NCBI GenBank assembly: GCA_013290125.1
Contig: JABCYQ010000017.1
Span: 1 to 61,945 of the forward strand
Source: Vulcanimicrobiota bacterium
GTDB lineage: Bacteria; Vulcanimicrobiota; Vulcanimicrobiia; Eremiobacterales; Eremiobacteraceae
DNA: 61,945 nt
Direction of reading: 5' to 3'
Below the pieces are notes generated by a model. The model had not been told where the DNA came from, did no database searches, and worked only from the letters and a program-made list of their open reading frames with translations. The stretch's first letter is position 1, and every line of letters starts with the position of its first letter. Below, piece after piece: positions 21,485-54,629 of this stretch. A program made the position numbers and the translations under genes.

Positions 21485-22261
21485 TCACGCGAAGATCATG
21501 CGTATTCCGGCATACACCATCGCGAGCGCCATGACGGGGCGCAGCCAACTCGTCGGAAGCTTCTTGCAGAGCCAAGTCCCTAAAATGACGCCGGGTATCG
21601 AACCGATCAGAAGCGAGAGCGTCATGAGCCAATTGACGTTGCCGATGGCCCAGTGACCGGCGGCCGCCACTGGAATCACCATGGCCGCGAACGCAACGTC
21701 GGAACCGATGATGTCTTGGATCCGCAGCATTGGAAGTATGAGGCAAAGTGCCGTCATCGTGATCGAACCGGCGCCGATCGACGTTATCGCGACAAGGTAT
21801 CCGACCACGGCACCAATGAGCATCACGCGCCACTTCGAGCGCTCTACGGTTTCGTAAGGATCTGGGTCGGTCTTTTTGATGATGAATGGCGTGACGATGA
21901 TGACGATCGCGACGAGGACGAGCAGGAATCCCAATCCGTGCTTGAGCCAGCTGTTGAGAGCGGCCAAGCCGATATGCGCTTCGACCGTATGCAGCGTCAG
22001 GACGCCCAAGACCGCCGCAGGGACGCCTGCAAGTGCGAGATACAGGACGACTTTCTTCGTTCCCGTGCGCTGGCGATGGTGGAAGAATGCTCCGACGAGA
22101 TTCGTCGGCATGCTGTAGGCCAGGTCCGTTCCGACCGCAGTTAGAGGCGACACCCCTAAAAGGAGGACGAGGATCGGCATCATCAGCGAACTCGACCCGA
22201 CGCCCGACATACCGACGAATATGCCGACCACGAAGCCGGCGAGCGAAAAATGCGGATCCAT
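21485..22261 (-). CDS. TauE/SafE (TSUP) family permease, paralogue 1
   Basis: 258 residues with about 8 membrane spans. The two halves each carry a TSUP-type glycine-rich motif: FVGMSGVGSSSLMMPIL near residue 20 and AITSIGAGSITMTALCL near residue 150. TSUP proteins move small anions such as sulfite, sulfoacetate or other organosulfur compounds over the inner membrane; direction and substrate cannot be told here. About three quarters of its residues equal those of the next gene upstream (22368-23141), and even the leader bases before the ATG are alike, so the two arose by tandem duplication. Confidence 0.85.
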   Translation of the reverse strand: MDPHFSLAGFVVGIFVGMSGVGSSSLMMPILVLLLGVSPLTAVGTDLAYSMPTNLVGAFFHHRQRTGTKKVVLYLALAGVPAAVLGVLTLHTVEAHIGLAALNSWLKHGLGFLLVLVAIVIIVTPFIIKKTDPDPYETVERSKWRVMLIGAVVGYLVAITSIGAGSITMTALCLILPMLRIQDIIGSDVAFAAMVIPVAAAGHWAIGNVNWLMTLSLLIGSIPGVILGTWLCKKLPTSWLRPVMALAMVYAGIRMIFA

Positions 22262-22367
22262 CGAGCCTACGTTAACAGAGACCGAGCGTTTGAGAAAGAA
22301 CCATTCCGCCTAAGCGACGCATCGCCGCGAAGGTTCGCTTCGGCGGGCGTCCGGCCCCGCGCTAGTC

Positions 22368-23141
22368 TCAGGCGAACAAGCGCGTGCCGGCGGCGATCAT
22401 CGCGACAGCCATCGCAGGCCGCAGCCACATCGTCGGCAGCTTCTTGCAAAGCCACGTGCCGAGAAGCACGCCGGGAATAGACCCGACGAGAAGTGCGATT
22501 GTCATCGGCCAATTGACCGTGCCGAGCGCGACGTGTCCGACGGCTGCGACCGGAACGATCAGCGCGGCGAACGCGACGTCTGACCCGACGAGGTCTTGGA
22601 TTCGCATCATCGGCAGGATCAGGCAAAGAGCGGTCATCGTGATCGAACCTGCGCCGATCGAGGTGATGGCGACCAGGTAGCCGACGACCGCACCGACGAG
22701 AATGATTCGCCATTTCGCGCGTTCGACGGTTATATACGGATCGGGGTCGCCCTTCTTGATGATGTACGGCGTGATGAGGACCACCACCGCAACGACGAAG
22801 AGCAAGACGCCCAAGCCGTGCTTGAGATCGGCGTTCAGCGCAGCCAGTCCGATGTGTGATTCGACCCACCGCAGCGTTAGGACGCCGAGGATCGCTGCGG
22901 GCACGCCGCCGAGCGCGAGATAGAGGACGACCTTCTTGCTCCCCGTCTTCTGCCGGCTATGCATGAATGCGCCGACGATTTTGGTGGGCACGCTATACGC
23001 GAGGTCTGTGCCGACGGCGACGAGCGGCGAAACGCCCAGAAAAAGGACGAGTATCGGCAACATCAGCGAGCTCGAACCGACGCCGGACATACCCACGAGA
23101 ACACCGACGACAAAACCGGCTATTGAAAAATGCGGATCCAT
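22368..23141 (-). CDS. TauE/SafE (TSUP) family permease, paralogue 2
   Basis: 257 residues, about 8 membrane spans, the same motifs as its neighbour (VGMSGVGSSSLMLPIL and AITSIGAGSITMTALCL). It is the promoter-proximal copy of the tandem pair. Differences cluster in loops, for instance around residues 60-70 and 100-130, and could mark different substrates. Putative role: inner-membrane anion or sulfur-compound transport. No sulfur-metabolism gene lies nearby to narrow this. Confidence 0.85.
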   Translation of the reverse strand: MDPHFSIAGFVVGVLVGMSGVGSSSLMLPILVLFLGVSPLVAVGTDLAYSVPTKIVGAFMHSRQKTGSKKVVLYLALGGVPAAILGVLTLRWVESHIGLAALNADLKHGLGVLLFVVAVVVLITPYIIKKGDPDPYITVERAKWRIILVGAVVGYLVAITSIGAGSITMTALCLILPMMRIQDLVGSDVAFAALIVPVAAVGHVALGTVNWPMTIALLVGSIPGVLLGTWLCKKLPTMWLRPAMAVAMIAAGTRLFA

Positions 23142-23382
23142 GGAGCCTACGCTAACAGACGGCCGAGCGTATGGGAAAGAACCATTCGGCCTATTACACT
23201 TTCCTAGTAGACTTGGTGGTAAGGCCCGACTTGCTCGGATCCTGGCCCAGTTTCCGCCGACTGAAAGTGCGGGATCTCATGCACAGCGTGGATAGCTTGT
23301 GGACGAAAACGGCGCAAAAGTTCGCTTTGGCCTTACGCGGCTTGGCTTTGCCGGTCGGACAAACGGCTGTTCGAAAAAACTG

Positions 23383-39592: not shown

Positions 39593-39749
39593 GTACGGGG
39601 AAATCGACCTCGAATCTTGCACCGGTGACGTGCATCATAGCGGCCGCAACTGAGAAAACGGTTAAATCTAGGTGGAGCCGCTAGGATCTCTTGCATCCTA
39701 GGCGATTCCGGATTCCATTTTCCGCACGATGCGGTGCTCGAGGAGTCTG

Positions 39750-39902
39750 ATGAGCCGGTCGCGCACGGCCGTGGTGCCGTACAAGCGGGACGAGACATAC
39801 CGTCGCGATGACGGAGGGGGCGCCGCTCTCTTCTATCTCATGAGCGGTGTGTTTGTCGGCTTTTTGACGTTCGTCTTGTGGTATACGCCTCGACACATGT
39901 GA
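39750..39902 (+). CDS. Small single-span membrane protein
   Basis: 50 residues from ATG 39750, with AGGAG at 39741-39745. The first 25 residues are charged (KRDETYRRDDGGG), then one hydrophobic helix (LFYLMSGVFVGFLTFVLWY) and a four-residue tail. It obeys the positive-inside rule with the N-terminus in the cytoplasm. A GC-rich hairpin follows the stop at once. The codon pattern and a proper ribosome site support a real gene, though it is short. Function unknown. Confidence 0.55.
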   Translation: MSRSRTAVVPYKRDETYRRDDGGGAALFYLMSGVFVGFLTFVLWYTPRHM

Positions 39903-39905
39903 TTT

Positions 39906-39935
39906 GCGCTCCCCACCTTCATTTGCGTGGGGCGC
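39906..39935 (+). terminator. GC-rich hairpin after the small membrane gene
   Basis: GCGC-T-CCCCAC at 39906-39916 pairs with GTGGGGCGC at 39927-39935 around a 10-base loop, starting four bases after the stop codon. It lacks a T-run, so it may only slow transcription or protect the RNA end. It is not present before copy 2 of the structured element, so it is not part of that element. Confidence 0.4.
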
Positions 39936-39954
39936 GGGCCCGCAACGGCCGGCA

Positions 39955-40225
39955 CGGCATGCCCCGCGAGGACGCTCCTTCGTTCGCATCCAGCTCACTC
40001 GGTCACTCGGTTCACTTCGTCGCTCTCGCCATCCATGGCTTCGCTCCTCGTTCAACGCCTCGCTTGGGCATGCCGCGCCGGCCGTTGTCGGTGTATCGCC
40101 GCGACATCATCGGCGATGTCGAGAGCCGGGGCGTCTGAGGCGGCGAAAGCCGCCGAAGTCGAGCGGCGGAGGTTGGTCATCCCGATTTTCCGCCGCGTCC
40201 CCGGCGAAGACATCGTCCGCTGATG
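39955..40225 (+). repeat. Structured repeat element, copy 1 (candidate RNA)
   Basis: About 270 bases with no credible gene, matched by copy 2 at 52107-52377. Helices: 39955-39971 with 40058-40075 (CGGCATGCCC...GCGAGG / CCTCGC...GGGCATGCCG); 40115-40131 with 40199-40214 (GATGTC and GCCGGGG against CCCCGGC and GACATC); hairpin 40139-40154 closed on a GAAA loop; hairpin 40164-40169 with 40190-40195. The 72-base core 40131-40202 differs from copy 2 at three positions. The GAAA tetraloop favours the + strand as the folded strand. Confidence 0.65.
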
Positions 40226-40243
40226 GAGCGGCAAATTGAAGTG

Positions 40244-40266
40244 GGGGCCGACATAAAGTCGGCCCC
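40244..40266. repeat. REP-like palindrome, copy C
   Basis: GGGGCCGAC-ATAAA-GTCGGCCCC, a perfect 9-bp inverted repeat. Its loop is the reverse complement of the loop in copies A and D, so this copy is inverted. It lies 14 bases after the stop of the leftward DnaQ-UvrC gene (40280) and 18 bases after structured element copy 1. Confidence 0.8.
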
Positions 40267-40279
40267 TTCGGGTATTGCG

Positions 40280-42067
40280 TTAGACTACTGGTTCGCCGTC
40301 GAGGATCTGAATCGCCCAGCGCTCGGACTCCGCCGGATCCGGCGTGCGCTCGGGCAACGGAACGAACGATAAACCTTCGCGAGACTTGCGGAACCACGTG
40401 GCGAGGATGAAAAGCTGATCGATCTCGTCTTGGCGCGCAAACGATCGCTCGGTCTGATCCGGCTTGTACTTCTCCGCGATCAGCCGAGCCAGTAAACTGC
40501 GAGCCTCCGCGCGCGCCGGCAGCCGGCGCGGCAGCCGCACTTGGCCCGCGAGTCTTCCTGCGTTGAACAGAAAGCACGCCTCCTCGGAAGGGTGGCCGGA
40601 GGGCGCGAGCACGATCATGGAAAGCCCCGTGGCATACTCAAGCCGAGCGTGTCGTTCGCGCAAACGCCGCAAGCGGTCAAGCCGCTTCTCTTCGCGCGAC
40701 GCGACGTCGAGTCTGCCGCGGGCGCCCGCTTCATCCCGGCGGCGCGCGATCGCTAAAAGCACATCGTCGGCTGCGCCCTCGATAAACGCGATGGCTTCGT
40801 CGAGCAGCGCCTCTACGTGACCGGGCGGCGACTGTGCGAGAACAGAGTCGCCTCTCTCGTCGTCGCATGCTCGCAAGCCGAGCGCGTCCTGCAGCGCGGC
40901 GACGGCTGCCCGAGCGGCCGCCATGCTCAGATACGGCCCGTAGTAGCGGGCACCATCGCCTGCGACTCGCGTCGTCGTGCAGAGATGGCCGCGCGCGCCC
41001 GCACCGACTTTGATGAACGCGAATTCGCGGAAGTTCCGTAAGCGATCGTTCATGGGAGGATCGTACGCGCGGACGAGCTCTGCTTCGAGCAGCAGCGCTT
41101 CAAATTCGCTGCCGGTGACCAAGTAGTCGAATCCCGCGACGATCGACCGAAGTTGGCAGACTTTCGTGCCGGCCGCTTTGGACGAGGCCGCGTACGTCCG
41201 AAGACGCGCGCGGAGCGACTTCGACTTGCCTACGTACACCACGTTCCCGCCGGCGTCTTTGAGCAGATAGACGCCCGGCCTCGTCGGCACTTCCGTCAAC
41301 TGAGCGAGGATGGATGACGACCAGACGGGTAGTTGCGCGGCGTCGACGAGCACGCGTACGCGCGGCTGTCGTTTGCGCTTGATGGGTCTCGTCCGCAGAT
41401 ACTGAGCGAGCGCTCCGTACGTGAACACGCCGCGGTCTTCGAGGCGCTTGACGCAATGGACGAGCAGATCTGCGGTCGCAGTGGCATCAGCGAGCGCGCG
41501 GTGGTGCCGCTCCACGTCGAGCCCGAGCTCGCGCGTCAAAGTGCCGAGTTTGTAGTTCTGCACTTCAGCGATCGTGCGACGCGCTAACGCAAGCGTGTCG
41601 ATCGTGGGCGTCGTCAGCCCCGCGTAACCGTGACGCCGAAGTTCGAAGTCGACGAATCCGGCGTCAAAGCGGACGTTATGGCCGACGAAGACGAATCCGT
41701 CGAGGCGCGACAGCACGACAGGCAGCACTTCTCTGACATAGGGCGCTCCAGCGACCATCTCGTCGGTTATCCCCGTCAGCTGAACGACGAACGGCGGAAT
41801 CGGACGTTCCGGATTCACAAACGACCGCCAGCGCCGGGTTATGCGGCCTTCTTCCACGTGGACTATCGCGATCTCGGTCATCGCGTCGTGGCCCGCGACG
41901 CCTCCGGTCGTCTCGATGTCCACTACGGCGAAACGGCACGACCACAGATCGGTCATCTCGAGCTCGCGAAGACGCGCAAGGAGCGCTTCTTGAGCAGCGT
42001 CCGCCGCAATCGCCGCATCCGCTAACGCTTGCTCGAAAGGAGCAGGCAGCGGTGCAAAATTCGCCAT
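40280..42067 (-). CDS. DnaQ-like 3'-5' exonuclease fused to UvrC-type GIY-YIG nuclease
   Basis: 595 residues. Residues of about 45-210 are a DEDDh exonuclease: FAVVDIETTGG (Asp/Glu), FVGHNVRFDAGFVD and HHRALADATATA with the catalytic His and last Asp. About 255-340 is a GIY-YIG domain: TRPGVYLLKDAGGNVVYVGKSKSLRARL. The remaining 250 residues resemble the middle of UvrC/Cho (YYGPYLSMAAARAAVAALQDALGLR) without the C-terminal endonuclease V-like half. The same fusion is known in Actinobacteria as a Cho-like repair nuclease with proofreading-type exonuclease. It likely cuts or trims damaged DNA; not needed for the main UvrABC path. Confidence 0.88.
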   Translation of the reverse strand: MANFAPLPAPFEQALADAAIAADAAQEALLARLRELEMTDLWSCRFAVVDIETTGGVAGHDAMTEIAIVHVEEGRITRRWRSFVNPERPIPPFVVQLTGITDEMVAGAPYVREVLPVVLSRLDGFVFVGHNVRFDAGFVDFELRRHGYAGLTTPTIDTLALARRTIAEVQNYKLGTLTRELGLDVERHHRALADATATADLLVHCVKRLEDRGVFTYGALAQYLRTRPIKRKRQPRVRVLVDAAQLPVWSSSILAQLTEVPTRPGVYLLKDAGGNVVYVGKSKSLRARLRTYAASSKAAGTKVCQLRSIVAGFDYLVTGSEFEALLLEAELVRAYDPPMNDRLRNFREFAFIKVGAGARGHLCTTTRVAGDGARYYGPYLSMAAARAAVAALQDALGLRACDDERGDSVLAQSPPGHVEALLDEAIAFIEGAADDVLLAIARRRDEAGARGRLDVASREEKRLDRLRRLRERHARLEYATGLSMIVLAPSGHPSEEACFLFNAGRLAGQVRLPRRLPARAEARSLLARLIAEKYKPDQTERSFARQDEIDQLFILATWFRKSREGLSFVPLPERTPDPAESERWAIQILDGEPVV

Positions 42068-50905: not shown

Positions 50906-51405
50906 CCGACGTCCCTCCGCAGGTCAGCCATGGCGCGCAGCACCGATGGCGGCACGAAATCCGAAACGTCGCCCCCAAGCGCGAAGATCTCGCGGACGCT
51001 CGACGACGATACATATGCGTATTCGACGCTCGCAGGCAGAAACATCGTGTCGACGTTTCCCGCGAGTTTACGATTGATCAGCGCCATCGTGAATTCACCT
51101 TCGAAGTCGGCGACGATGCGCAGTCCTTTGACGATGAGCCGCGCCCCTTGCTGGCGCACGAAATCTACGAGCAGCCCGTCGAAAGACGCGACTTCGACGT
51201 TCGACAGGCCGCTGCACGCATCGCGAAGCATGGCCACCCGCGCGTGGGCGGAGAACATGGGCCGTTTATTCGGATTGGCGACGACCGCGACGACGACATG
51301 CGGAAAGGTGCGGGCCGCTCGGCGAGCCACATCGAGATGGCCGTTCGTCATCGGATCGAAACTGCCGGGATAGATCACCGGCGCATCGTGCGACGGCGCC
51401 ATCAC
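50902..51405 (-). CDS. coaD: Phosphopantetheine adenylyltransferase
   Basis: 167 residues. Nucleotidyltransferase fold with YPGSFDPMTNGHLDVARRA (the TxGH motif appears as TNGH) near the start and VSSSSVREIFALGGDVSDFVP near the end, both CoaD hallmarks. Makes dephospho-CoA from 4'-phosphopantetheine and ATP. Overlaps the rsmD stop by four bases. Confidence 0.96.
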   Translation of the reverse strand: MMAPSHDAPVIYPGSFDPMTNGHLDVARRAARTFPHVVVAVVANPNKRPMFSAHARVAMLRDACSGLSNVEVASFDGLLVDFVRQQGARLIVKGLRIVADFEGEFTMALINRKLAGNVDTMFLPASVEYAYVSSSSVREIFALGGDVSDFVPPSVLRAMADLRRDVG

Positions 51406-52070
51406 GATTGCCCGGACCGACGCCGTTGTTGGCGCGCGCGCGGCCGCTCTTGCGCGGTCGCGATCCTCTCTGCCTGCGGTGCGGTGTCTCGAGTGGGTAC
51501 GACCGAGGCGAACGTGAGTGTCGTGTCGCCGTATTTCGTCGATCGAAGCACGCGCAGCGATGTGGGCAGTGCTACTTCCTCGCCGCTGCGATGCTCGACG
51601 ACGACCATGCCGTCTGGTGCGACAAGACTGCGCTGCATCAGCGTCACAAGCTCGTCGCGTGCGCCGCGATCGTACGGCGGATCAACGAGTACGATGTCGA
51701 ATACTCCGCGCAATCTGCGCAATGCGCGCAGCGCAGTTATCGGCATGATCCGAAATCGATCTTTGTCGCCGATCACCGCCACGGCGTTACGGCGAACGGT
51801 CATCGCGGCAGCCGCGTCGCTTTCGACGAAGACCACTGAAGCTGCGCCGCGCGAGATCGCTTCCAACCCAAGTGCGCCTGAGCCGGCGAACAAGTCGAGC
51901 ACGCGCGCGCCTTGCACGCGTTTTTCAAGCACTGCGAACAGCGCTTCCCGTACCTTGGCGGACGTTGGTCTCGTCCTCTCGCCGCGCGGGGCCGCGACCA
52001 CACGCCGAGCGCTCCTGCCTCCGGACAATCGCATGGTGGCTCTAGTTGGACGCGTCGTCGTGTCCTTCAT
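51402..52070 (-). CDS. rsmD: 16S rRNA (guanine966-N2)-methyltransferase RsmD
   Basis: 222 residues. GERTRPTSAKVREALFAVL near the start, motif I VLDLFAGSGALGLEAISRGA and the catalytic DPPY in IVLVDPPYDRG. Methylates G966 of 16S rRNA during 30S assembly. The 30-residue C-terminal tail is basic and probably disordered. The 335-base gap upstream (52071-52405) holds the structured element copy 2 on the opposite strand. Confidence 0.94.
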   Translation of the reverse strand: MKDTTTRPTRATMRLSGGRSARRVVAAPRGERTRPTSAKVREALFAVLEKRVQGARVLDLFAGSGALGLEAISRGAASVVFVESDAAAAMTVRRNAVAVIGDKDRFRIMPITALRALRRLRGVFDIVLVDPPYDRGARDELVTLMQRSLVAPDGMVVVEHRSGEEVALPTSLRVLRSTKYGDTTLTFASVVPTRDTAPQAERIATAQERPRARQQRRRSGQS

Positions 52071-52106
52071 TTAGCATCGCAACATCCGCCGCCAACATCC
52101 GCACGA

Positions 52107-52377
52107 CATGCCAGCGAGTACGCTCCGTCGTTCGCATCCAGCTCACTCGGTCGTTCGACTTCCTTGTCGCTCTCGCCATCCATGGCTCCGCTCCTCGTCA
52201 GACGCCTCGCTTTGGCATGCCGTGCGGACGTTTTCCCACGGCCGTGCCGCGACGCATAAACGGCGATGCCGTGAAGAGGGGCGTCTGAGGCAGCGAAAGC
52301 CGCCGAAGTCGAGCGGCGGAGGTTGGTCATCCCGATGATCCGCCGCGTCCCCGATAACGGCATCGCCGTTTATGCGT
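52107..52377 (+). repeat. Structured repeat element, copy 2 (candidate RNA)
   Basis: Partner of 39955-40225. Helices: 52107-52118 with 52206-52219; a perfect 21-bp stem 52252-52272 with 52357-52377 (ACGCATAAACGGCGATGCCGT and its complement) where copy 1 has a different, shorter paired sequence; hairpin 52289-52304 on GAAA; hairpin 52314-52319 with 52340-52345. The 72-base core 52281-52352 matches copy 1 at 69 positions. The whole 52071-52405 gap shows no other gene. Confidence 0.65.
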
Positions 52378-52405
52378 GGCGGGTCGAAAAGGTCGGCTTC
52401 GCGCG

Positions 52406-54544
52406 CTACGACGTTATGCGAAGGGAGGCCGAGCGTTCGCGGGCGTCGAGCGCCCGCTTGAGCGCCGCGTTTGCGGCGGTCTTGAGTCCGGGATCGCGGG
52501 AGAAGATCACGTCTACTTCTTTTTTCGCCTGTTCGAAGACCGGTAAGTCGCGGATGAGATCTGCGAGCCGCAATTCGGATTGCCCGTGCTGCCGCGTGCC
52601 GGCAAGATCTCCGCTGCCTCGCAGGCGGAAATCGGCTTCGGCTACTTTGAATCCGTCGTTGGTGGACGCCAAAATCTGTAAGCGTTCGCGCTCTTCTCCA
52701 GATCGTTCGGACGCGACGAGGATGCAGTACGATGCCTCGGCACCTCGCCCGACTCGCCCGCGCAGCTGATGCAATTGCGCGAGCCCAAACCGGTCCGCGT
52801 CGAGCACCACCATGACGCTCGCGTTCTGCACGTCGATGCCGACCTCGACGACCGTCGTGGCGATGAGCACTTGGATGAAGCCGCCGGCGAGCAGCCGCAT
52901 CGTCTCATCTTTCTGCCTCGTCGTCATCTTGCCGTGGAGAAGTGCGACGCGAAGTCCAGCGAACGCGCCGCGTCGCAACTCTTCCGCTTGCTCAACCGCC
53001 GAGTGTATCGCGTGTTCCGACTCGTCGATCGCGGCGCAGACGACGTATGCCTGTCGACCTTCGCCGACTTGCTCTCGGACGAAGGCGAAGATCTTCTCCT
53101 TCTGCTCTGGCGTGCGCACGAACGTCTTGACAGGGCGGCGGCCCGGCGGCAATTCGTCGAGAACGCTGAGGTCGAGATCGGCGTACAACGCTTGCGCGAG
53201 CGTTCGCGGAATCGGCGTCGCAGTCATCACAAGGGTGTGCGGCGTCCAGCCGCCCGCCTTCGCGCGAAGTTCCGCGCGTTGCAAAACGCCGAAACGATGT
53301 TGCTCGTCGATGATCGCAAGCCCGAGCGAGCTGAACTCGACATCGTCTGTGAGCAGCGCGTGCGTGCCCACGACAAGGTCGACCTCATTCGCCTTGATGC
53401 GCGAAATCGTCTCGGCTTTCGTCCGCGCGCGCAGCCCACCGACGAGGAGCGCCGTCTTGATGCCGCTTGCTCCCAAACGAGGGCCAAGCTTTTGGAAATG
53501 CTGCATCGCGAGGATTTCGGTGGGCGCCATGAATGCGGACTGATGACCAGCGCGGGAAGCCAAGAGAACGGCAGCGGCCGCGACTGCGGTCTTACCCGAC
53601 CCGACATCGCCTTGGAGAAGCCGGTTCATCGGCGAGGCGCGGAGCATATCGGCGGTAAGTTCCGCGACGCAACGCCTTTGCGCGGCGGTGAGACGGAACG
53701 GCATGAGGCTCTCGACATCGGCTGCGAAGGAAGCTCGCGCTTTCGCCGACGACATGCTCGCGAAATCCGGCGCGCGTGCGCCGGCATATGCGGCACGGCG
53801 GCGTGCCGCATGCGCCGCTAGCAGAAAGAACTCTTCGAACACGAGCCGCTCGCGCGCGAGCGCCGCTTCTTCGAGCGATGCCGGGGCGTGAATCGCGCGC
53901 AGCGCCCAATGCGCGTCGCGAAAAGAATGCCGCGCGTTCACGCTTGCCGGCAGCGGGTCCAACTCCCCGATCGACGCGTTATCGGCCTCAACGTCTTTGA
54001 GCGCGCGGGCGATCCACCTGCGAACGACGCGATTCGGCAATCCAGCTGTCAGGGCGTACACCGGCACGAGTTCGCCGATCAGTTCTTCGCCGACTGCGAC
54101 TACGCGATGCTGCGAGACGGACATCTTGGCGCCGGCAAGCGTGGTCTCGATTCGCCCGCGCACGAAGACGCGGGTTCCGACGCTGAGCTGCCTCGCGAGA
54201 TACGGGCGGCCGAACCAGATGGCTTGCAACTGGCCGGACCCGTCATCGATGACGGCGGTCGATTTCGATTTGACTCGACCGCGCAGCCGCACATGCGAGA
54301 ACTGGCGTATGATGCCGATGACATTTGCTTCGGTCGACGTACTGTTCGCGACGCTCGATATCTGTGAGATCTCGCGCAGATCGTCGTACCGATAGGGATA
54401 GTGGCGGATCAGATCGCCGACGGTGAGCACGCCCAGCCGAGCGAAAAGTGAAACAAGGGCCGGCGTGACGCCGCCGACTTCGCTCAGCGGCGTGCTCAGG
54501 CGGCTCGGCGGGACCTTTCGCGTCGGACTCGTCGCGCGCGCCAT
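52406..54544 (-). CDS. recG: ATP-dependent DNA helicase RecG
   Basis: 712 residues from ATG 54544, with CGGAG just ahead; GTG 54592 would add 16 residues without a ribosome site. The wedge OB-fold domain lies at about 60-200. Helicase motifs: I LLQGDVGSGKTAVA, Ia MAPTEILA, II IIDEQHRFG, III VMTATPIPRTLA, IV-VI VAIDESEHAIHSAVEQ and the end QLHQLRGRVGRG. Reverses stalled replication forks and moves Holliday junctions. It begins the leftward recG-rsmD-coaD series. Confidence 0.96.
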   Translation of the reverse strand: MARATSPTRKVPPSRLSTPLSEVGGVTPALVSLFARLGVLTVGDLIRHYPYRYDDLREISQISSVANSTSTEANVIGIIRQFSHVRLRGRVKSKSTAVIDDGSGQLQAIWFGRPYLARQLSVGTRVFVRGRIETTLAGAKMSVSQHRVVAVGEELIGELVPVYALTAGLPNRVVRRWIARALKDVEADNASIGELDPLPASVNARHSFRDAHWALRAIHAPASLEEAALARERLVFEEFFLLAAHAARRRAAYAGARAPDFASMSSAKARASFAADVESLMPFRLTAAQRRCVAELTADMLRASPMNRLLQGDVGSGKTAVAAAAVLLASRAGHQSAFMAPTEILAMQHFQKLGPRLGASGIKTALLVGGLRARTKAETISRIKANEVDLVVGTHALLTDDVEFSSLGLAIIDEQHRFGVLQRAELRAKAGGWTPHTLVMTATPIPRTLAQALYADLDLSVLDELPPGRRPVKTFVRTPEQKEKIFAFVREQVGEGRQAYVVCAAIDESEHAIHSAVEQAEELRRGAFAGLRVALLHGKMTTRQKDETMRLLAGGFIQVLIATTVVEVGIDVQNASVMVVLDADRFGLAQLHQLRGRVGRGAEASYCILVASERSGEERERLQILASTNDGFKVAEADFRLRGSGDLAGTRQHGQSELRLADLIRDLPVFEQAKKEVDVIFSRDPGLKTAANAALKRALDARERSASLRITS

Positions 54545-54629
54545 GGACTCCGTGGGATCAACGAGCGTTGGATGGGAGCGGACTGCGCTCACCCGCGAGG
54601 CGTTCGCGTCGCGGGTGATTTGGGCCCTC

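Follow-up and report, generated by a model that had tools for sequence, protein, structure and literature searches.

The ERIC/RU, bcr1 and Correia/NEMIS repeats are interspersed, gene-less palindromes of ~100–200 bp that fold as RNA. They are listed as a MITE-like class (PMC3733652). REPINs and BIMEs, which are associated with REP-associated tyrosine transposases (RAYTs), are likewise extragenic, non-autonomous and built from inverted palindromic units (PMC3116915, PMC2817692), and compensatory changes are common in REPIN hairpins (PMC3116915). The CGTC-tagged REPs, including the Rickettsia palindromic elements, are single hairpins of 20–40 bp with 8–9-bp stems and A/T at the stem base, which have no dedicated transposase, occur in head-to-head pairs, and have intragenic copies in repair genes (PMC3733652); indeed, intragenic REPs often lie in genes for replication and repair (Di Nocera et al., PMC3733652). 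Template switching at inverted repeats homogenizes the two arms and inverts the spacer between them (PMC8604942), and a single such event can produce multi-base compensatory changes with no RNA-level step (PMC8794818). We searched the literature on Eremiobacterota for REP or RAYT, along with the broader REPIN literature, and found no paper on the repeats of this poorly studied phylum.

Here we analyze a repeated element, the core, in a 61,945-nt stretch of an Eremiobacteraceae genome (the window; its genome is referred to as G000, and its sister species as G001 and G002). The core belongs to no named family and behaves like a REP/MITE-type mobile palindrome. It shares with ERIC/RU, bcr1 and Correia/NEMIS its approximate size, palindromic form, dispersal, lack of genes and ability to fold as RNA, but has no conserved terminal inverted repeat, its terminal arms being instead its most variable part. 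With REPINs and BIMEs it shares extragenic, non-autonomous inverted palindromic units, compensatory hairpin changes, and a genome that contains a RAYT and REP doublets; it differs from them in forming a three-way junction of 120–140 bp with its own arms and a sequence unrelated to the local REPs, in lying inserted within a REP doublet, in not being seen to flank a RAYT, and in being present in genera without one. Like the CGTC-tagged REPs, it bears CGTC beside a hairpin (P3, in 32 of 52 copies, with CCTC in 8), has no dedicated transposase, forms head-to-head pairs and has intragenic copies in repair genes, whereas its CGTC lies inside a larger junction and is predicted to be partly paired. 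As in template-switched inverted repeats, its arms are corrected to match and its spacer is inverted in place; however, the published spacers are a few bases long and the inverted segment here is ~110–330 bp. Inversion on this scale may require an intermolecular switch, or else recombination involving longer repeats.

A multicopy element with a conserved fold

The initial annotation described a structured element in two copies, the 72-nt cores of which match at 69 of 72 positions. This identity (96%) was confirmed, and copy 2 is the closest relative of copy 1, but the core is present at 29 places in G000 (E ≤ 1e-10). The features of the two copies in the window are as follows.

40131–40202, + strand: the conserved 72 nt of core copy 1, comprising the junction, P3 and P4 and defined by the genome copies and by covariation in P2–P4
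40105–40225, + strand: the repeated unit of copy 1, made up of core, P2 and outer arms (matched over its full length by blastn and by the covariance model; fold z −7.7)
40125–40131/40199–40205, + strand: P2 of copy 1, enclosing P3 and P4 (pair map, per-pair covariation)
40139–40144/40149–40154, + strand: P3 of copy 1, with a GAAA loop (pair map, per-pair covariation)
40163–40170/40189–40196, + strand: P4 of copy 1 (pair map, per-pair covariation)
52281–52352, + strand: core copy 2, conserved 72 nt, the 69/72 match to copy 1
52252–52377, + strand: core copy 2 with a 21-bp perfect outer stem, 52252–52272/52357–52377 (fold z −9.5)

The full unit of core, P2 and arms spans ~120–140 nt, and in the fold the variable outer arms lead through P2 to a three-way junction that carries two hairpins, P3 with its GNRA loop and the larger P4. 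The closing helices first described for copy 1 (GATGTC 40115–40120 with GACATC 40209–40214; GCCGGGG 40125–40131 with CCCCGGC 40199–40205) and the perfect stem of copy 2 are present as reported. The P3 loop is GAGA or GAAA in 47 of 52 copies, the P4 loop contains a conserved CCCGA, and tandem G·A mismatches (CUGA/GAAG) are predicted beneath a stacked P3. Since the CCCGA, GNRA and junction motifs are common to several genera, some sequence-specific recognition or function is likely; such conservation exceeds what pure mutational homogenization would demand, and enzyme recognition and function would both fit it.

A covariance model detected 95 core copies in 10 of the 14 genomes of the family (29, 10, 3, 15, 6, 3, 1, 12, 6 and 10 copies each). 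In class genomes outside the family it found essentially none, with single marginal matches (E ~7e-4) in 3 of 47, and scanning GTDB and viral contigs for exact patterns of the core returned no match. The core is thus multicopy and family-restricted. At the Rfam gathering score only a tRNA was detected in the window, and the best sub-threshold matches at E ≤ 10 were at chance level, in keeping with the original remark that the element was not recognized as a known riboswitch, 6S RNA, tmRNA or RNase P RNA. Of the conditions named as refuting the original reading, an absence of further homologs is contradicted by these copies, and a degraded protein-coding repeat is not supported.

The partner of the core varies: in genera g3 and g4 it is often a second, head-to-head core, and in G000 it is often a second repeat, module A. 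The head-to-head pairs (in G004 and G011, e.g., L097, L098, L100 and L103, and at G005:C89, G012:C15 and G013:C141) are invariably (−)(+), an arrangement like that of REPIN doublets but one level higher. A left-core remnant often precedes module A in G000.

39952–40078, − strand: module A copy 1, the second repeat, with a general plan like that of the core (arms, closing stem, two weak hairpins)
52101–52225, − strand: module A copy 2, 86% identical by sequence comparison
39911–39926: left outer arm CCCCACCTTCATTTGC, the imperfect complement of 40231–40246, enclosing the whole composite (a single instance, read from the sequence)

Module A is a separate 127-nt repeat with 20 copies in G000, and it lies directly upstream of the core in 18 of 28 copies. 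The outer helix CGGCATGCC/GGCATGCCG, originally assigned to the element as a whole, does pair in both copies, where it closes module A; it does not enclose the core, and module A has a distribution of its own, with matches in 52 of 101 related genomes, mostly outside the family. A module-A motif scan matched one named record, from Candidatus Eremiobacteria. The fold of module A is more pronounced on the − strand (z −6.4) than on the + strand (z −3.4). Module A has a class-wide relative in genus g12 (L072, L126–L137, L131), where the perfect arms reach 38 bp and are specific to each locus; each g12 genome has many copies of it without any Y1 transposase.

REPs, REPINs and a RAYT

Beside copy 1, and 43 bp from its core, is a further hairpin.

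40245–40265: REP hairpin GGGCCGAC-ATAAA-GTCGGCCC

The pattern GGGCCGAC-N5-GTCGGCCC occurs at 270 sites in G000, which also contains about three dozen close doublets, mostly inverted, with a conserved 15-nt spacer (e.g., ACGTTACGTTCGCTA). Contig G000:C26 encodes a single-copy, 170-residue Y1 transposase that matches the NCBIfam REP-associated tyrosine transposase model NF047646 (91.8 bits; cut-off 80), and its gene, at the contig start (L147:229–741), is flanked by tandem REP hairpins, four to the left and three to the right. A RAYT gene surrounded by the REPs of its own genome, together with inverted GGGCCGAC doublets, constitutes a full RAYT/REPIN system, here in Candidatus Eremiobacteria. 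The hairpins had also been considered as stereotyped terminators, a reading rejected because their position around the transposase gene identifies them as REPs.

The core is embedded in these arrays. A right-hand REP lies 35–47 bp from it in 20 of 28 copies and REPs flank it on both sides in 16 of 28, while from REP density (270 in 2.9 Mb) fewer than 1% of cores would be expected to have a REP within 60 bp. The carrier, two inverted REPs around a short spacer, is a REPIN; the core is not one, and neither is it a REP, which is a single 20–40-bp hairpin bearing a terminal tag, GTAG or CGTC, that is unpaired, since it is ~120 nt long and has three helices. Genus g3 has a REP of entirely different sequence (CGGTCGAGAT...), but there too several cores lie between REPs, and a REP–core–REP unit of ~220 bp recurs at several G011 loci.

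The near-fixed REP–core distances, the recurring ~220-bp unit and the presence of a RAYT raise the possibility that the core is a passenger, carried as the spacer of giant REPINs that the RAYT alone moves and having no mobility of its own. We consider this possible but doubtful, because cores without REPs occur in g4, where cores are present and no Y1 transposase was found, and at some g1 and g3 sites, and because a core with its arms has been added inside an existing REP doublet (see below). At one site the G001 core is without the REPs and module A that accompany it in G000, and REP carriage is therefore not obligatory. No core copy adjoins the RAYT genes that were examined. The RAYT is the leading candidate for the putative mobilizer of the REP-flanked copies, and the g4 cores argue that it is not the sole route.

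Empty sites and in-place inversion

The element is mobile. The site of copy 1 is empty in G001, where it measures 115 bp compared with 379 bp in G000, and in G002 the flanks align with the element absent. In another genus, the locus G004:C7 holds a core, closed by a perfect arm stem of 20 bp, in the spacer of two inverted GTAG-tagged REPs, while at the orthologous G011 site the same two REPs are separated by a short spacer that lacks the core; we infer insertion rather than loss, on the cleanness of the site and not on an outgroup. The presence/absence polymorphism characteristic of MITEs is thus seen both at copy 1 and between G004:C7 and G011, and terminal inverted arms are present but variable; no consistent target duplication was seen at these empty sites.

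A module-A-type element with 33-bp arms lies between two genes in G055. At the same site the genes are only a few bases apart in G052 and G045, and neither arm was found in any relative compared (G052, G045, G046). In G046 the empty site (G046:C23:141859–141881) has a 20-bp perfect palindrome, TAGGAGCCTGCAGGCTCCTA, that spans both convergent stop codons and is possibly a remnant of arms left after loss of an element. At the copy 2 site (52090–52390), the G001 counterpart (G001:C18:6230–6560) is a composite that has been rearranged, part of module A being in reverse orientation, so that this site looks like a hot spot.

At seven orthologous loci where both species have the element, the copies were compared in direct and in inverted orientation. 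Relative to its flanks the element is inverted at four: C48/G001:C22 (90.3% identity inverted, 71.8% direct), C40/G001:C22b (89.6% and 74.9%), the G011:C75/G004 pair (84.5% and 69.1%), and the G005/G012 locus, which by eye lies between murF-like and cofE-like genes (83.2% and 73.6%). Orientation is kept at the other three (C14/G001:C16, C42/G001:C49, and G004:C4:259 kb/G011:C75). The inverted pairs correspond to loci L018/L046, L028/L067, L103/L098 and L038/L052.

Covariation, gene context and arms

Covariation was assessed in an alignment of 52 copies, 27 from G000 and 25 from eight relatives. Standard pairs form in 93.4% of P2–P4 cells, and 16 of the 21 pairs show double changes. Double-changed cells number 62, compared with a shuffle mean of 9.5, and no shuffle attains 62; sliding the partner column by 1–3 positions yields at most 21. 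A conserved fold with compensatory change, as the initial annotation proposed, is thus confirmed. Both copies fold far better than shuffled sequences on the + strand, as listed above, though they also do so on the − strand (z −5.4 for copy 1 and −8.6 for copy 2).

The initial annotation took the compensation as the signature of selection on a fold, and the element could accordingly be a functional structured + strand RNA (a cis-acting 3′-end element, an attenuator or an sRNA) that is only incidentally multicopy. Strong covariation, a GNRA tetraloop in nearly all copies, the greater stability of the + strand (−82.6 versus −69.7 kcal/mol), and the many copies at gene 3′ ends all suit such an RNA. 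The functional-RNA reading is nevertheless not supported. Selection on a + strand transcript should make G·U more frequent than A·C among the mismatches in the stems, and no such excess exists (29 versus 36 overall; 7 versus 15 in P2–P4; 22 versus 21 in the arms). A transversion-type double change has no route via G·U, and such changes make up 33 of the 61 cells that pass from one Watson–Crick pair to another, the other 28 being transition-type (these are cells, not independent events). Furthermore, the copies are mobile and sit in REP arrays, their orientation relative to genes is mixed and is flipped at orthologous sites, some lie inside coding sequences, Rfam has no match, and both strands fold. 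Overall, the earlier interpretation is partly supported, in its fold and compensation, and a functional transcript appears improbable.

The genes beside the two copies are as follows.

39729–39902, + strand: conserved small ORF of 57 codons and a stop, upstream of copy 1 (G001 and G002 alignment)
40280–42067, − strand: exonuclease (RNase_T) and GIY-YIG gene downstream of copy 1 (Pfam)
51402–52070, − strand: rsmD-like methyltransferase gene flanking copy 2 (Pfam PF03602)
52406–54592, − strand: recG flanking copy 2 (Pfam RecG_wedge, DEAD, RecG_dom3_C)

Both copies had been described as antisense to their neighbors. This holds for copy 2, between two − strand genes, and is only half true for copy 1, where the + strand ORF just upstream makes the site convergent. 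By a crude longest-ORF method, ~12 of 28 classified copies lie in convergent gaps and the others are co-directional, antisense or divergent. This, and the T tracts that often follow the flanking REP hairpins, might indicate hairpins that were recruited to convergent gene ends as transcription terminators or mRNA-end stabilizers and are mobile only incidentally; but the core lacks a T tract of its own and is inserted in a REP doublet that already supplies hairpins, and copies also occur in divergent gaps and inside genes, which makes such recruitment decidedly improbable. Two of the intragenic cores are in frame within neighboring imuB-like and dnaE2-like mutagenesis-polymerase genes (G000:C15; L010:3038–3109 and L035:3007–3049), and the imuB ortholog of G002 has module A and a partial core at the matching site. 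Elsewhere in the window, 21518–22312 and 22398–23193 are adjacent and 76% identical over 796 bp, probably as a tandem gene duplication.

Outside P2, the arms extend for ~15–35 nt and are highly divergent between loci but matched within each locus. Among 24 copies from relatives, the 5′ and 3′ arms of the same copy have a pairing score of 15.3 versus 5.8 for mismatched arms, and the copy's own arm ranks first in 21. Within G000 alone the contrast is weaker (−33.6 for own arms versus −28.4 kcal/mol for mismatched ones), because most arms there still have the GGCATCACCGGCGATGTC consensus in common. The g3 arms are variants of a single consensus, GGGTGTCGCTCT/AGAGCGACACCC, altered on both sides, and the arms therefore travel with the element. 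That they are instead locus-specific inverted duplications of the target flank, made by snap-back synthesis at insertion, would account for arms that are nearly unique per locus yet perfectly complementary, but is highly improbable given the g3 consensus and was rejected on the empty sites, which have neither arm.

The hammerhead core consists of CUGANGA ... GAAA in a three-way junction. By eye, CUGA, GAA and GUC surround the junction of the present element, CUGA and GAA on either side of P3, but no NGA follows CUGA and no covariance-model match was obtained at E ≤ 10; the ribozyme was rejected.

Discussion

Collectively, these comparisons favor a model, to which we assign a probability of about 0.72, in which the core is a small (~120–140 bp), non-autonomous, mobile palindromic repeat of the REP/MITE type, nested in REPINs, whose stems are kept matched largely by template switching. 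Homogenized arms combined with inverted spacers are the signature that has been published for template switching between inverted repeats. In the mechanism that we envisage, the element would spread as single-stranded DNA folded into a hairpin, with help in trans from an HUH/Y1-type enzyme, which may be the REP-associated transposase that belongs to the surrounding REPs, and template switching between the inverted arms during replication would both keep the stems largely matched and flip the orientation. The compensatory changes can be explained without invoking selection on a transcript. The likelihoods that we attach to the alternatives overlap that of this model, the passenger reading being a sub-case of it, and do not sum to one.

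A broader proposal, which we regard as speculative and on present comparisons unlikely, is that the core represents a distinct class of bacterial mobile palindromes recognized by shape, as a three-way-junction single-stranded DNA hairpin, and not by terminal sequence. Such elements would insert at the apex of a REP doublet, exchange arm sequences that stay self-complementary, and flip in place in the normal course of their life cycle; the class-wide module-A repeats would form a second branch.

The proof customarily offered for a structured RNA is covariation. In this element, strong covariation (the 62 double-changed cells) occurs alongside mobility and inversion in place, and wobble pairs are not preferred; covariation alone would therefore misclassify the element as an RNA gene. 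Furthermore, with its empty sites and flipped orthologs, the family provides a natural system for how RAYT/REPIN systems acquire larger structured cargo, and for the speed with which template switching rewrites palindromes in real genomes.
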